A stretch of DNA of 64,000 nt from Syntrophotalea acetylenivorans (GTDB lineage Bacteria; Desulfobacterota; Desulfuromonadia; Desulfuromonadales; Syntrophotaleaceae). Where the stretch lies: positions 2,974,001-3,038,000 of the forward strand of contig NZ_CP015519.1 in NCBI RefSeq assembly GCF_001887775.1, in the 5' to 3' direction. The position numbers and the translations under genes are program-made. The notes beneath the pieces are model-generated. The model ran no database searches, was not told where the DNA came from, and worked only from the letters and a program-made list of their open reading frames with translations. Positions 16,158 to 21,448 of this stretch are shown here, in pieces (position 1 is the stretch's first letter; the number at the start of each line of letters is the position of its first letter).

Positions 16158-18380
16158 TTGAACGAATCCCTTAAACGCCGTTATTGTTTACCCCTCGCCA
16201 TAGGCGATGTCATCACCAGCATGCTCTCGCCCTTTACCTGGGGCCGTCGGAGTCATAAATATCAGGACTCCCTGCGAATTCCCGATGATTTTTTCGGTAT
16301 AAATATCGCCTCCTCCGAAGACGAGCGTTGCGATGATTATGTTTTGGAACGTCTTAGAGAACTTGGCATTGATAATGTGCGGTTGGGATTCAGTTACTGT
16401 AGTTTTGACGGCCCGGCGGCCAGGTTTCTTGAGAAACTTCTTTCTGAGAAATTTGAGGTAACCCTGGTCGTTTTACCGCCCTTGGAGATGGCCAGAGAAA
16501 TGCTTGCGGATAAGGGCGTGCAGGAACAATGGCGGTCCTTTGTTGCCGAGGTGTTTAGCCGCTACGCCCAGCGTGTTGCGGTTTTCGAGATTGGAAGCAC
16601 CCCCAACCGCAAGAAATGGTCCGGTTTTCATCCTCGCAGCTATCTGCAGGCCTGGGAGATCGCCTGCGAAGCGGCAAAAGACCATGCCGTCATTCTGGCC
16701 GGGCCAAATATCCAGGATTTTGAGCCGTTTTACAACGCCGCCATTTTGTCCGCCATGGGGCGTCTTTCACGAGCCCCCGATATTCATACCAACAACTTGT
16801 TTGTCGAGCGGGTGGTTGAACCCGAGGCCTATGACCATCGTGTCCTTGGGCGCTGGGCGACCAACCTGCTAAAATTCAATCTGGCCAAAAAAGCGCGTAT
16901 CTTAAAGTCTTTGGGAAAGAGGGTCGGTTGCCGGCAGTTTTTTTCGACCTGCAAGTTCTGGTCGACCAAACGGCTGCGGCGCTGGTCTCTCTATCCGCAG
17001 GATAAGAAGGTCGATTACCTGGCCCGCTACTTGGTGCTGGCTGCTACCAGCGGTTCTCTGGGCCGGGTTTACTGGGGGCCGATGATCTGCGGGCGCGATG
17101 GGCTGATTGATGACCTGGCCGAAGACTATCCCACCATCGACCATTCAAGCTTTTATAAACGGGTTCGCGGAGATATCGAGGACTTTACCGTGACCCCGGC
17201 ATTTTTTGCCCTCGGCCATGTTGCCCAGCGCCTGCGCAATGCTTACTGCGACCATGCTTTTAGCGACGCCAACGGGATCAGTCATTTTGCCTTTACCGGT
17301 GCTGAAAACGAAGTGTTTCATATCTGCTGGTGCCGGGACGGTCAGGCCTATCGCCTGGATGAACTGTACAGCGCGGAGCAGTTGGCCGACGCTGTTTTCA
17401 CCAATGCCTGTGGCAAAATCGTCGATTTGCCTGTGACGATCAATGAACGACCGCTGTTCATCGATTTCCCGCGGTTGACCGGCCAGCAGCTGCCTGAGCA
17501 CCGATCCGCGATGGCAGGGAAAAAAGCAGATGTCTTCTATGTTGCCCAGCCCAAGGTGCAGGCCTTTCCCTGGAAAAATCGTCACTGGCGCGGAGCTTTT
17601 ACCAGTATCGCCGAGTTACCGTCCCCGGCGCTTGGCGACCTGTTGGCTCCGGACGAAGTGGTGCAAAGAGCCGAACTGACAGTATTGCGGGATCGGCGCA
17701 ACCGGCTGTGGAATATCGCTCATCCCCTTGATGAGAAGCAACAGCTGACGGTTAAATTCAATCGCCCGCGGGGCAGTAAGCGGCTGCTTTACCTCTTCAA
17801 GCCAAGCAAGGGACTGCGCCACTGGAATACCGCCTCCAGGATGCTGCACAAGGGCATCAGCACACCTTTGCCCGTAGCCTTTTATGAACGTCACCGCTTC
17901 AGCGGGGTCAGGGACAGTTATTATATCTGTCAATATATCCCCGGAGCGTTTTCCTCGCGCCAGGTCTGCAACGCCTTTCGACAAGGACAAAAAGAGTACC
18001 GGGGGCTTGATAAACAGCAGTGGTTTGACTTGCTGACCGGCTTTATTTGCAATATGCACAATGCCGGCATCCTGCATCGGGACCTTTCCGTGGGCAACCT
18101 TATGCTCACCCAGGATGATGACGGTAAAATCACCCCTTATCTGATCGATATCGGTCGGGCCAAAGTGGTAAAAAATACCCTTGGTGGCCGCCAGCGCATT
18201 CTGGATCTGATGCGAATCTGTTATAAACTCGATTGGCCGGATCGCGAACTGTTAATCCAATGTTATAGCCAGCATTGGGGAAGATCATTCTCTTCGTATT
18301 GGCGGTTGGCGGTTAAATATTATGACATAAAGCAAGGCGGCAAAAAGAAGCTAAAAGGGAAGCTTAAGAAAAAACGCTGA
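16158..18380 (+). CDS. Fusion protein: glycosidase-like barrel plus WaaP/InaA-type kinase
   Basis: A 740-residue protein not matched to a named family. Residues about 40-330 look like a GH5/GH39-like TIM barrel: FFGINI, then LRELGIDNVRLG, then VAVFEIGSTPNRKKWSGF followed by YLQAWEIACEAAK. In active glycosidases that site reads WNEPN with a catalytic Glu; here it is GSTPN, so the acid/base is missing. Residues about 530-740 are a small protein-kinase-like domain of the lipopolysaccharide kinase type: catalytic loop HRDLSVGNL (His640) and metal loop YLIDIGRAK (Asp664). The C terminus is very lysine-rich. No signal peptide is evident. TTG at 16158 is the longest start; ATG at 16221 is an alternative. 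A role in cell-surface sugar phosphorylation is inference. Confidence 0.7.
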   Translation: MNESLKRRYCLPLAIGDVITSMLSPFTWGRRSHKYQDSLRIPDDFFGINIASSEDERCDDYVLERLRELGIDNVRLGFSYCSFDGPAARFLEKLLSEKFEVTLVVLPPLEMAREMLADKGVQEQWRSFVAEVFSRYAQRVAVFEIGSTPNRKKWSGFHPRSYLQAWEIACEAAKDHAVILAGPNIQDFEPFYNAAILSAMGRLSRAPDIHTNNLFVERVVEPEAYDHRVLGRWATNLLKFNLAKKARILKSLGKRVGCRQFFSTCKFWSTKRLRRWSLYPQDKKVDYLARYLVLAATSGSLGRVYWGPMICGRDGLIDDLAEDYPTIDHSSFYKRVRGDIEDFTVTPAFFALGHVAQRLRNAYCDHAFSDANGISHFAFTGAENEVFHICWCRDGQAYRLDELYSAEQLADAVFTNACGKIVDLPVTINERPLFIDFPRLTGQQLPEHRSAMAGKKADVFYVAQPKVQAFPWKNRHWRGAFTSIAELPSPALGDLLAPDEVVQRAELTVLRDRRNRLWNIAHPLDEKQQLTVKFNRPRGSKRLLYLFKPSKGLRHWNTASRMLHKGISTPLPVAFYERHRFSGVRDSYYICQYIPGAFSSRQVCNAFRQGQKEYRGLDKQQWFDLLTGFICNMHNAGILHRDLSVGNLMLTQDDDGKITPYLIDIGRAKVVKNTLGGRQRILDLMRICYKLDWPDRELLIQCYSQHWGRSFSSYWRLAVKYYDIKQGGKKKLKGKLKKKR

Positions 18381-18483: not shown

Positions 18484-19959
18484 ATGAGACATATGACCCT
18501 GAAAACAAAGCTGATATTGTCCGTCAGTATTCTGCTGGTGTTTGGTTTTGTGCTGACCAACGTCAATCACTACCGTGTCTCTACCCGCTCGATCCGTAAA
18601 AACATCGTTGAACATTCTCTGCCGCTGACCCGCGACAATATCTATTCGGAAATTCAGGCCGACCTGATGCGCCCCATCTTTATTTCGTCGCTGATGGCCA
18701 ACGACACCTTCCTCAAGGACTGGGCTATTGGCGGCGAACAGGATAAGGGCAAAGTCCTGCGCTATCTGCAGGAAATCAAGGATCAATACGGTTTTTTCTC
18801 AACCTTTTTCGTCTCGGAGCAAACCGGGCTTTATTACCATTTCAAAGGAGTGCAGAAAAAGCTCAGCCGGGAAAATGACCACGATGTCTGGTATTACGAC
18901 TTCAAGTCCCTGAATAAACCCTATGATCTGGTTGTCGATACCAATGAGGCCGAAGAAAACAGCCTGACTATTTTCATCAATCATCGCCTTAACGACTACC
19001 AGGGCAAACTGCTTGGGGTGACCGGTGTCGGATTGAATATGGAAATGGTCGCTGATCTGCTCAAGTCTTATCGTCAACGTTATGACCGGGATATCTACCT
19101 GGTCGATCGCGATGGATTGATCAAGGTGCACAACGACCAGAGTCTGGTAGACCGGGTCAACATTGCCGACCAAGAAGGATTAGGCGAGGTGGCTTCGCAG
19201 GCGGTGAAGATTAAGCCCGGAAGTGATGCTCTGGATTTCTGGCGAAATGGTCGACATATCCTTCTGGCTTCGCGATATATCCCCGAGTTTGAATGGTTCC
19301 TGTTTGTCGAGCAGGACGAAACAACGGCGATCGCTGAAATCCGCAAGAGCTTTTATAAAAACCTGCTTTTTGATCTCGCCATTATTCTGGCGATCCTTGC
19401 CGTCACTGCTTATACCGTCAATCGGTTTCAAAGCCGATTGGAGGAGATGGCCACCACCGATAAGTTGACCGGTGTTTGCAACCGGCGGGAGTTCGATCGC
19501 TTTTTTGATGCGGCTGTCTACCTCCACAAAAGGCAGGATGCGTCCTTTTCTGTCATTTTGTTGGATGTCGACGGTTTTAAGACGATCAATGATCAGCTCG
19601 GACATATGGCGGGAGACCATGTGTTGAAGGTGATTGCCAGACTAGCCGGCGAAAATATTCGGCAAAACGACCTGGTAGTGCGTTGGGGTGGGGATGAGTT
19701 TGTTCTTCTGGTGCATAACGACTTGAATCATGCCTGGCAGGTGGCGGAACGCTTGCGGAAGCAGATTCGCAGTCAGAATATGTTGGCTGTGTTTACCAAC
19801 AATGGCGCCGATGAGTCGGTCACCATCAGTTGCGGTGTGGTGAGTTATGAGGCCGGAGAGACCCAGGATCAACTTATGATGAGGGTCGATGGGGCTCTCT
19901 ATGAGTCCAAAAAGGAGGGCAGGGACCGGAGTGTAGCTTTCCCGACCATTGTCTCGTAG
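18484..19959 (+). CDS. Membrane diguanylate cyclase with periplasmic Cache-type sensor
   Basis: A 491-residue enzyme predicted to make cyclic di-GMP. Two membrane helices (residues about 8-26 and 294-313) bracket an exported dCache-like region of about 260 residues, containing LVDRDGLIKVHND. The GGDEF domain has an intact active site RWGGDEF, and the inhibitory I-site RQND lies five residues before it, so product inhibition is expected. The start codon has a weak AGAGAG upstream; ATG at 18493 is also possible. It follows the kinase fusion gene by about 100 bases. A bidirectional terminator lies 200 bases downstream. Confidence 0.93.
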   Translation: MRHMTLKTKLILSVSILLVFGFVLTNVNHYRVSTRSIRKNIVEHSLPLTRDNIYSEIQADLMRPIFISSLMANDTFLKDWAIGGEQDKGKVLRYLQEIKDQYGFFSTFFVSEQTGLYYHFKGVQKKLSRENDHDVWYYDFKSLNKPYDLVVDTNEAEENSLTIFINHRLNDYQGKLLGVTGVGLNMEMVADLLKSYRQRYDRDIYLVDRDGLIKVHNDQSLVDRVNIADQEGLGEVASQAVKIKPGSDALDFWRNGRHILLASRYIPEFEWFLFVEQDETTAIAEIRKSFYKNLLFDLAIILAILAVTAYTVNRFQSRLEEMATTDKLTGVCNRREFDRFFDAAVYLHKRQDASFSVILLDVDGFKTINDQLGHMAGDHVLKVIARLAGENIRQNDLVVRWGGDEFVLLVHNDLNHAWQVAERLRKQIRSQNMLAVFTNNGADESVTISCGVVSYEAGETQDQLMMRVDGALYESKKEGRDRSVAFPTIVS

Positions 19960-20219: not shown

Positions 20220-20876
20220 CTATTTGTTGAGGCGTTCTTCGCCCCACTCCCTATCGAGGAATCGGTCTCTACCCGAGTTATAACGGTAAAACTTGTAGCG
20301 CAGCGGATTTTTTTTGTAGTAATCCTGGTGATACTCTTCGGCAGGATAAAAGGTTGAGGCCGGTACGATTTCGGTGACGATGGGCTTGTCGAAACGTCCC
20401 GATTTTTCCAAAGCTTGTTTCGATTCCTCGGCCAGCAACCGTTGCTCTTCATTCAAATAAAAAATCCCCGAACGGTACTGGTTGCCCCGATCGACAAACT
20501 GGCCTTGTCCATCGGTCGGATCGATGTTCATCCACAGGATCTCAAGTAGCTGTGGATAACTTATTTGTGACGGGTCGAAGACAATTTCAATGGCCTCGGT
20601 ATGACCGGTTCCGCCGGCGGAGACCTCATTATAGGTTGGGTTGAGCTTCTGTCCGCCGGTATAGCCGGAGGTCACGGAAAGCACTCCCGTCAGTTTTTCG
20701 AAAGGAGGCTCCATGCACCAGAAGCAGCCTCCGGCAAAGATCGCCAGTTCTGTGTTGGCCGCCACGGCGGCCGTTCGTTCATTTTGCATCATCTCCCTGT
20801 CCTTTTTGTCTGCGGCCACCACCGTAAACAGTCCGGCGGCAAGCAGGGTGAGTACCAGAAATACAAGTCGTTTCAT
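20220..20876 (-). CDS. msrA: Peptide methionine sulfoxide reductase MsrA, exported form
   Basis: Reduces the S-epimer of methionine sulfoxide in proteins. The catalytic motif [11 protein letters not shown] places the nucleophile at Cys51, after an N-terminal signal sequence ([22 protein letters not shown]), so it acts in the periplasm. The GYTGG and [12 protein letters not shown] segments are typical. ATG 20876 is chosen because AAGGAGGC lies seven bases upstream; an earlier in-frame ATG would add ten residues before the signal peptide. It is 47 bases behind msrB and probably cotranscribed. Confidence 0.96.
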
Positions 20877-20923
20877 AGTCGCCTCCTTGTCTGTTTCACG
20901 ACCCAACTTTATGCAAACCCGGA

Positions 20924-21448
20924 CTATTTATACGTTACGAAATTGAGAGCAGCGGAATTCATGCAGTAGCGCTTGCCGGTGGGCGCCGGACCATCATCAA
21001 ATACATGGCCCAGATGACCGCCGCAGCGGGGGCAAAGCACTTCGGTGCGTACTATGAAAAATTTACGATCCGTTTTCAATTCCACGTTTTCTTTAGCGAT
21101 CGGTTCATAGAAGCTTGGCCACCCGGTTCCCGAGTCGTACTTGGTCTCGGAGCGGAACAGCTCAAGTCCGCAACCGGCGCAGGTGTAGATGCCCGCCTCG
21201 TGGTGATCGTTATATTTGCCGCTGAAGGCGCGCTCTGTCCCTTCTTCGCGGAGCACATGGTACTGCATGGGTTCCAGTTGCGCTTTCCACTCCGCATCGC
21301 TCTTAATGACCTTTTCGCTCATAACGTATTCCTCTTGCTCGGTTGAAAAGACACGAATCGATTCCGCCTTTGCAATACCGTCACCCAAAGGTACGGATAG
21401 CAGCAGAGCGGAGAAAAAGAACAACTGAAAGATGCTTCGATAGGCCAT
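20924..21448 (-). CDS. msrB: Peptide methionine sulfoxide reductase MsrB, exported form
   Basis: Reduces the R-epimer of methionine sulfoxide, complementing the MsrA next to it. The catalytic block [11 protein letters not shown] is present at the C terminus, and two CxxC pairs (CAGCG and CPRCG) form the structural zinc site. An N-terminal hydrophobic signal (residues about 8-28) indicates export. The ATG has AAGGAGG seven to eight bases upstream. First gene of the msrB-msrA unit; separately exported MsrA and MsrB differ from the fused MsrAB of some bacteria and from the MsrPQ system. Confidence 0.96.

Follow-up and report, generated by a model that had tools for sequence, protein, structure and literature searches.

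The genome of Syntrophotalea acetylenivorans encodes a protein in which a glycosidase-type barrel, predicted to have lost its catalytic residues, is joined to a kinase domain of the lipopolysaccharide (LPS) type. That this fused architecture is real is strongly supported, and we give an even chance to the reading that the protein is a cytoplasmic glycan kinase equipped with a pseudo-glycosidase as sugar-recognition module, with the LPS core as its most likely acceptor.

The fused protein

The reading frame and its features are listed in Table 1. The frame belongs to a 3.2-Mb genome represented by a single contig, and lies in the window, that is, the whole 64-kb (64,000-nucleotide) stretch of DNA that was analysed. 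An earlier note on this DNA had described a 740-residue frame joining a barrel to a WaaP-type kinase; the frame is present, and a PF06293 match, together with fold matches to WaaP (PDB 6dfl) and PslG, bears out both halves. Its start region is common to close homologues. Searches of the fusion gene or the 64-kb window against PHROGs and Rfam gave no matches. Comparisons within the family were made on a fused set of 46 distinct full or near-full homologues.

The protein begins with a hydrophobic or amphipathic helix, and in a hydropathy and moment scan neither a transmembrane segment nor a signal peptide was evident. In nearly all homologues the protein ends in a strongly basic tail: over its last 35 residues the net charge is +12 in the source protein and typically +8 to +14 elsewhere. 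From these features we assign the protein to the cytoplasm, where it would probably sit at the membrane, like WaaP.

Table 1. Features of the fusion gene (window positions) and stand-alone relatives of its barrel (locus positions)
Feature	Position	Strand	Basis or remark
Pseudo-glycosidase/LPS-kinase-like fusion, complete reading frame	16158..18380	+	740 aa, TTG start; full-length homologues, purifying selection
N-terminal helix, residues 3-23	16164..16226	+	DSSP of AF2 model, mostly pLDDT <50; hydropathy and moment scan
(beta/alpha)8 barrel, GH39/PslG-like, residues 40-335	16275..17162	+	PslG sequence alignments; AF2 and fold matches
EIGSTPNR, residues 144-151, end of strand 4	16587..16610	+	46 fused homologues; hhalign to PslG-like L129
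QDFEP, residues 186-190, acidic motif, end of strand 5	16713..16727	+	D187, F188, E189 46/46
NNLFVER, residues 212-218, after strand 6	16791..16811	+	N213, E217, R218 46/46
STCKFW, residues 263-268, end of strand 7	16944..16961	+	PslG STEWGW alignment; hhalign; 46 fused sequences
Beta-domain as typical for GH39-type enzymes, residues 340-440	17175..17477	+	AF2 strands; hhalign
Linker subdomain, residues 441-504	17478..17669	+	31% mean pairwise identity over 336-500
Kinase domain, Kdo/WaaP superfamily, residues 505-715	17670..18302	+	PF06293; 6dfl WaaP matches
Lys533, candidate ATP-binding lysine (WaaP K51)	17754..17756	+	46/46; WaaP roles from PMC6147952
HRDLSVGN, residues 640-647, catalytic Asp642 and metal-binding Asn647	18075..18098	+	D642 46/46, N647 45/45
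DIGR, residues 664-667, metal-binding Asp664, Arg667	18147..18158	+	45/45 each
Basic C-terminal tail, residues 716-740	18303..18377	+	Net charge
Stand-alone barrel	L051:9197-10243
Stand-alone barrel	L052:1723-2826
Stand-alone barrel	L053:1156-2232
Stand-alone barrel	L054:9060-10154
Stand-alone barrel	L055:8778-10415
Stand-alone barrel	L124:1921-2976
Stand-alone barrel	L125:9423-10475

Fold of the barrel

Residues 1-500 match no Pfam or NCBIfam family, and no curated glycoside hydrolase (GH) profile of either library detects the barrel. A family profile of 13 homologues gave PslG as its sole meaningful match among 177,635 PDB sequences; this match is weak (E 0.007), and consists of two collinear segments in the same order as in PslG. 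When the AF2 model of residues 38-440 (pLDDT 80.6, pTM 0.85) was run against the PDB with Foldseek, the top four matches were PslG (three entries) and one GH39 enzyme, with E 8e-17 to 2.5e-13 and TM ~0.66. An hhalign alignment with a PslG-like protein, L129, runs on through the beta-domain to residue 401. Since the top fold matches are PslG and GH39, we call the barrel GH39-like, and the model indicates that this fold includes the beta-domain. The N-terminal half, which the earlier note had taken for a GH5/GH39-like barrel, is thus modelled as a TIM barrel even though the Pfam and NCBIfam profiles are silent. The GH39 part of that description stands, in the form of a GH39/PslG-like barrel; the GH5 reading was rejected, the best fold matches being PslG and GH39.

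PslG, a GH39-type endoglycosidase of Psl synthesis in Pseudomonas aeruginosa (PDB 5bx9, 4zn2, 9g17), is the best fold match of barrel and beta-domain, and its sequence matches the fusion collinearly at ~17% identity. It lacks a kinase domain and is found partly in the periplasm.

Loss of the catalytic glutamates

Hydrolysis by PslG requires E165 and E276 (PMC6813494), and both are replaced in the fusion. Where WNEPN has the acid/base Glu, the fusion has Thr148 (16599-16601), and threonine occupies this position in 46/46 distinct fused homologues, with E144, N150 and R151 equally invariant (46/46). A search of 369 gammaproteobacterial genomes with a PslG fragment yielded one PslG-like protein, L129; its hhalign alignment with the fusion (E 0.0013, probability 18.5%) sets QIWNEPN opposite EIGSTPN and ATEWGW opposite STCKFW. 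The acid/base alignment rests on this single protein, the EIGSTPN motif itself and the fold match. Because the loop is modelled with pLDDT <50, the register around residue 148 was taken from the sequence motifs and not from the model.

The nucleophile position, an addition to the earlier note, which had looked at the acid/base position only, is changed as well. Cys265 (16950-16952) stands where PslG has E276 (STCKFW versus STEWGW in PslG), and the 46 fused sequences have A, Y, V, C, H or N there, never Glu. As judged by these alignments, both catalytic glutamates of the retaining mechanism are gone across the fused family, and for that reason the fusion is not filed as a glycoside hydrolase despite its GH39/PslG fold. 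The earlier claims that GSTPN stands in place of WNEPN, and that hydrolysis seems lost with the overall shape kept, agree with the alignments and with the modelled fold.

Other residues of the barrel are strictly kept. In addition to those in Table 1, E223 and D226 are invariant in 46/46, and an IDFE counterpart of QDFEP is found in 7/7 stand-alone relatives. In the AF2 model N150, R151, D187, E189, N213, E217 and R218 follow strands 4, 5 and 6. The region just after these strands is the sugar-binding or substrate face of such barrels.

Constraint on the two halves

Mean pairwise identity is 50% in the barrel, 31% in region 336-500 and 43% in the kinase, and the numbers of invariant residues are 40, 9 and 21 respectively. 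The linker (441-504) together with residues 336-440 is the least conserved part of the fusion. Comparisons between Desulfuromonadales orthologues give dN/dS values of 0.07-0.17 (barrel) and 0.06-0.18 (kinase), which indicate purifying selection on both halves. Conservation of the barrel above that of the kinase, with both glutamates lost, fits retained binding and not decay.

The constraint could also belong to a barrel that is re-tooled and not dead, in which invariant acidic and Arg residues would run another glycan reaction and make the protein bifunctional. E144, D187, E189, E217, R218, E223 and D226 are invariant in 46/46, the barrel is under more constraint than the kinase, and the stand-alone relatives retain the nucleophile Glu and the IDFE motif; but the fused family has lost both Glu of the retaining mechanism, and the analysis turned up no known GH39-fold enzyme that has such a site. 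We regard such a re-tooled barrel as quite unlikely. A further suggestion, which we put forward tentatively and as an unlikely one, would make the barrel a new active or gating site, its invariant acidic/Arg cleft either reacting on the growing LPS core or serving as a checkpoint that restricts firing of the kinase to a correctly built core.

Two decayed remnants of the gene were observed. One (G009:C163:11764-12444; loci L008 and L135) has only residues 1-110 and 626-739 left, with 9 bases between them, and the other (G007:C90:52664-52909; L007) has only the last ~80 residues. They lie in two genomes of the source's family, and show that loss of the gene is possible. Such broken copies would favour an artefact, a lone variant or a decaying gene, but the substitutions are common to 46 distinct homologues. 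The lone-variant reading was rejected because Thr148 is found in 46/46 fused homologues, with Glu at the GSTPN position in 0/46, and decay was rejected for the source copy because its dN/dS is ~0.1; the probability left to explanations of this kind is negligible.

The kinase domain

Residues 551-687 match PF06293 (Kdo/WaaP) at 33.4 bits against a cut-off of 21.3. WaaP, the LPS core heptose(I) kinase also called RfaP (6dfl), is the best match to the kinase half, both with the family profile (E 2e-8) and as a fold match of the full-length AF2 model (E 2.3e-9). The NCBIfam equivalogs were not reached, either for WaaP/RfaP (34.6 bits, cut-off 170) or for the Kdo kinase KdkA (26.4 bits, cut-off 142). 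The kinase half is accordingly classed by its sequence matches as a Kdo/WaaP superfamily member that is neither an RfaP nor a KdkA equivalog. KdkA and other PF06293 proteins share the Pfam family with the fusion, and differ from it in lacking the fused barrel.

The principal kinase residues have counterparts in WaaP: K533 corresponds to K51, D642 to D163, D664 to D188 and R667 to R191, the substrate-binding Arg, which is essential in WaaP (PMC6147952). Kinase counts of 45 instead of 46 reflect one fused sequence that ends early. The HRD triplet (640-642) and metal-binding Asp664 are present, as the earlier note had it. WaaP differs from the fusion in several respects: Asn647 stands where WaaP has metal-binding H168, Y165 is not retained, and the N-terminal pseudo-glycosidase is extra. 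His640 of the HRD triplet is found in 20/46 sequences, including the source protein, and is Phe in 26/46. The alpha-C Glu (WaaP E78, PMC6147952), whose position was assigned by alignment with WaaP, is absent: residue 555 is Ser in 26 and His in 20 of the 46 fused homologues, in which residues 549-559 contain no conserved acid. Assignment to a WaaP/InaA-type kinase therefore holds for the Kdo/WaaP family, by profile and fold, but not for the usual alpha-C Glu.

These replacements raise the question of whether neither half is a working enzyme, so that the protein would act as a scaffold or regulate the assembly of envelope glycans. The change of alpha-C Glu to His or Ser in 46/46 and of the HRD His to Phe in 26/46 would favour this, as would the WaaP mutants E78A, with EDTA sensitivity up 128-fold, and H161A, with no growth (PMC6147952). 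Against it stands the invariance of K533, D642, N647, D664 and R667. One stand-alone kinase carries a related SKA/SW motif that lacks the alpha-C Glu, and so does the C-terminal kinase domain of the WaaP double protein at L058; since the loss extends to these kinases, we read it as a trait of a subfamily and not as decay of the fusion gene. That both halves are pseudoenzymes seems very unlikely.

Double-kinase proteins, composed of an RfaP or Kdo-type kinase and a second kinase-like domain, were observed in LPS-core loci (L058:13851-16088, L112:12428-13867 and L126:9254-10750, the last in the source genome at about 321-323 kb). The second domain lacks the alpha-C Glu in L058.

Stand-alone relatives, distribution and phylogeny

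Seven stand-alone relatives of 350-545 aa without a kinase (Table 1) were homologous to the fused form in reciprocal searches. In 7/7 the acid/base position is Ala (QIGNAxNRxKWG) and the nucleophile Glu is kept (ITEFNWP), so that this ~350-aa barrel family is, on its motifs, a half-dead glycosidase. A sequence search of the PDB with a profile of the stand-alone family gave no GH match of meaningful E-value. In the unlikely reading that makes the fused barrel an active or gating site, glycosidase relatives would have lost the acid/base Glu, and the fused form the nucleophile too, with the acidic/Arg cleft gained.

In some genomes stand-alone barrels adjoin thiG/trmB-like or LPS genes, and those of L124 and L125 adjoin a GT9 gene. 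In L125 a stand-alone barrel belongs to an LPS-core operon, a run of genes on a single strand that goes on with GT9, GT2, a Kdo kinase and an O-antigen ligase. Among the fetched ORFs no other unfused protein matches the source kinase half as well as this Kdo kinase, which is also the sole match to it in that 2.0-Mb genome. With barrel and kinase in one gene run, the two modules evidently stand unfused side by side at least once. No genome but this one showed an unfused pair in one operon; three others have their best kinase match on a different contig from the barrel.

The fused gene is patchy in distribution. A long fused copy is present in 6/14 genomes of the source's family, and the fused form in 3/395 genomes of the phylum sample (source genome counted), in 35/63 genomes of one gammaproteobacterial order, where some copies are broken, and also in Methylophilaceae, a Pseudomonadales MAG and others. 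The closest named relatives are Desulfuromonadales MAGs. The stand-alone form occurs in two of the 63 genomes of the gammaproteobacterial order, and none of the 63 has both forms. One genome, G828, has two divergent fused copies (L113:8742-10979 and L128:1329-3560) on separate branches of the tree.

The fused sequences group together in the tree (88/95), as do the stand-alone sequences (97/86); deep nodes are unsure on account of long branches. The Desulfuromonadales clade joins gammaproteobacterial lineages, including LPS-core-linked ones (91/100), a grouping likely to be explained by cross-phylum transfer.

Gene neighbourhoods

At the source locus an aconitase gene lies 197 bp upstream, and a dCache-GGDEF gene begins 103 bp downstream. 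These flanks are kept within the genus (source, L021, L032) and absent in L023 and L060; a functional tie to the aconitase and GGDEF neighbours was dropped because the arrangement is genus-only. Downstream of the fusion (18484-19959, 20220-21448) are the dCache-GGDEF diguanylate cyclase and separate MsrA and MsrB, in an order that is again genus-only. The source gene is 2.67 Mb from the LPS-core locus of its own genome, which encodes a heptosyltransferase, a canonical RfaP/WaaP, GmhA and a double Kdo kinase.

Neighbours belonging to LPS-core or LPS-kinase genes were found within the fetched flanks of 7/45 other fused loci, five of which make up one related group. In that group (L058, L059, L115, L117, L118) the fused gene lies amid a waaC-type GT9 heptosyltransferase, HldE, GmhA, WaaP and a WaaG-like GT. 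L112 has a different arrangement, with a GT9 relative, three Kdo-kinase-cluster proteins, a carbamoyltransferase, a pyruvyltransferase and GmhA, and L123, from the source's phylum, has a looser LPS context of a double Kdo kinase and GT2. The expectation that neighbours in other genomes would be LPS genes therefore holds for some loci, but most homologues lie outside LPS clusters. In a 16-member gammaproteobacterial clade the neighbours are unrelated to LPS. In Methylophilaceae a sulfatase-superfamily membrane protein is encoded directly upstream of the fused gene in 7/7 loci (L025-L031; for example L028:5902-7887), and in several of these an acyltransferase/AMP-binding protein and an MFS transporter are further upstream.

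The Methylophilaceae arrangement would suit a protein of the same mechanism with another acceptor, namely some other glycan or glycolipid associated with the membrane, for instance an intermediate of exopolysaccharide synthesis or a glycan that bears phosphoglycerol. The relative nearest to the barrel among solved structures, PslG, has Psl exopolysaccharide as its substrate and takes part in polysaccharide synthesis at the inner membrane (PMC6813494, PMC9075953), and the source gene is outside its own LPS locus. The core-heptose genes around the fused gene in LPS-linked loci argue against such an acceptor, as does the fact that characterised members of the kinase family act on Kdo or heptose; we consider it possible but rather unlikely.

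Discussion

We propose that a GH39/PslG-type barrel lost both catalytic glutamates, and that its substrate cleft would have been retained and remodelled for a glycan acceptor. This acceptor is most likely the (lipo)polysaccharide core oligosaccharide at the inner face of the inner membrane. To it the WaaP/Kdo-type kinase domain would then move phosphate from ATP while the barrel holds it, and the N-terminal helix and basic C-terminal tail may hold the protein near anionic membrane lipid or LPS. A role in recognition is probable for the barrel, and the LPS core is the likeliest acceptor. The fusion recurs across bacterial groups, sometimes within LPS-core clusters, which points to the dead barrel as the part that recognises the sugar chain on behalf of the kinase.

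An LPS-core kinase of this kind is consistent with PslG and WaaP as the best fold matches of the two halves, with the invariance of the main kinase residues, and with a barrel that is strongly constrained although positions 148 and 265 have uniformly lost their glutamates and that keeps invariant polar residues after strands 4, 5 and 6. LPS-core neighbours in part of the family, the unfused pair of L125 and the grouping in the tree with LPS-linked gammaproteobacterial lineages point the same way. Several observations weigh against it: the source gene is far from a core locus that already holds RfaP/WaaP and a double Kdo kinase, only 7/45 other fused loci are LPS-linked and five of these are related, the Methylophilaceae gene follows a sulfatase-superfamily membrane protein, the alpha-C Glu is absent, the T148 loop is modelled poorly (pLDDT <50), the unfused pair is found in a single genome, and the gene has a patchy distribution, with decayed copies in some close relatives.

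Pseudo-glycosidases are known chiefly for roles in recognition, Klotho being one example. The likeness of the fusion to these animal co-receptors is one of concept, in that a glycosidase fold that has lost catalytic Glu would be used for recognition; Klotho-type proteins belong to another GH family and are extracellular receptors without a kinase, so that the comparison is by analogy alone. No published description of the fusion was found in the open-licence papers searched, and the protein would be an undescribed player in envelope glycan phosphorylation. If the proposal is true, a dead enzyme would supply acceptor specificity to a live glycan kinase of which it is covalently part, and a Pfam-dark barrel family gains a testable role. 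The stand-alone form, with one Glu lost, and the fused form, with two, may mark a stepwise route from enzyme to recognition module that is experimentally accessible.
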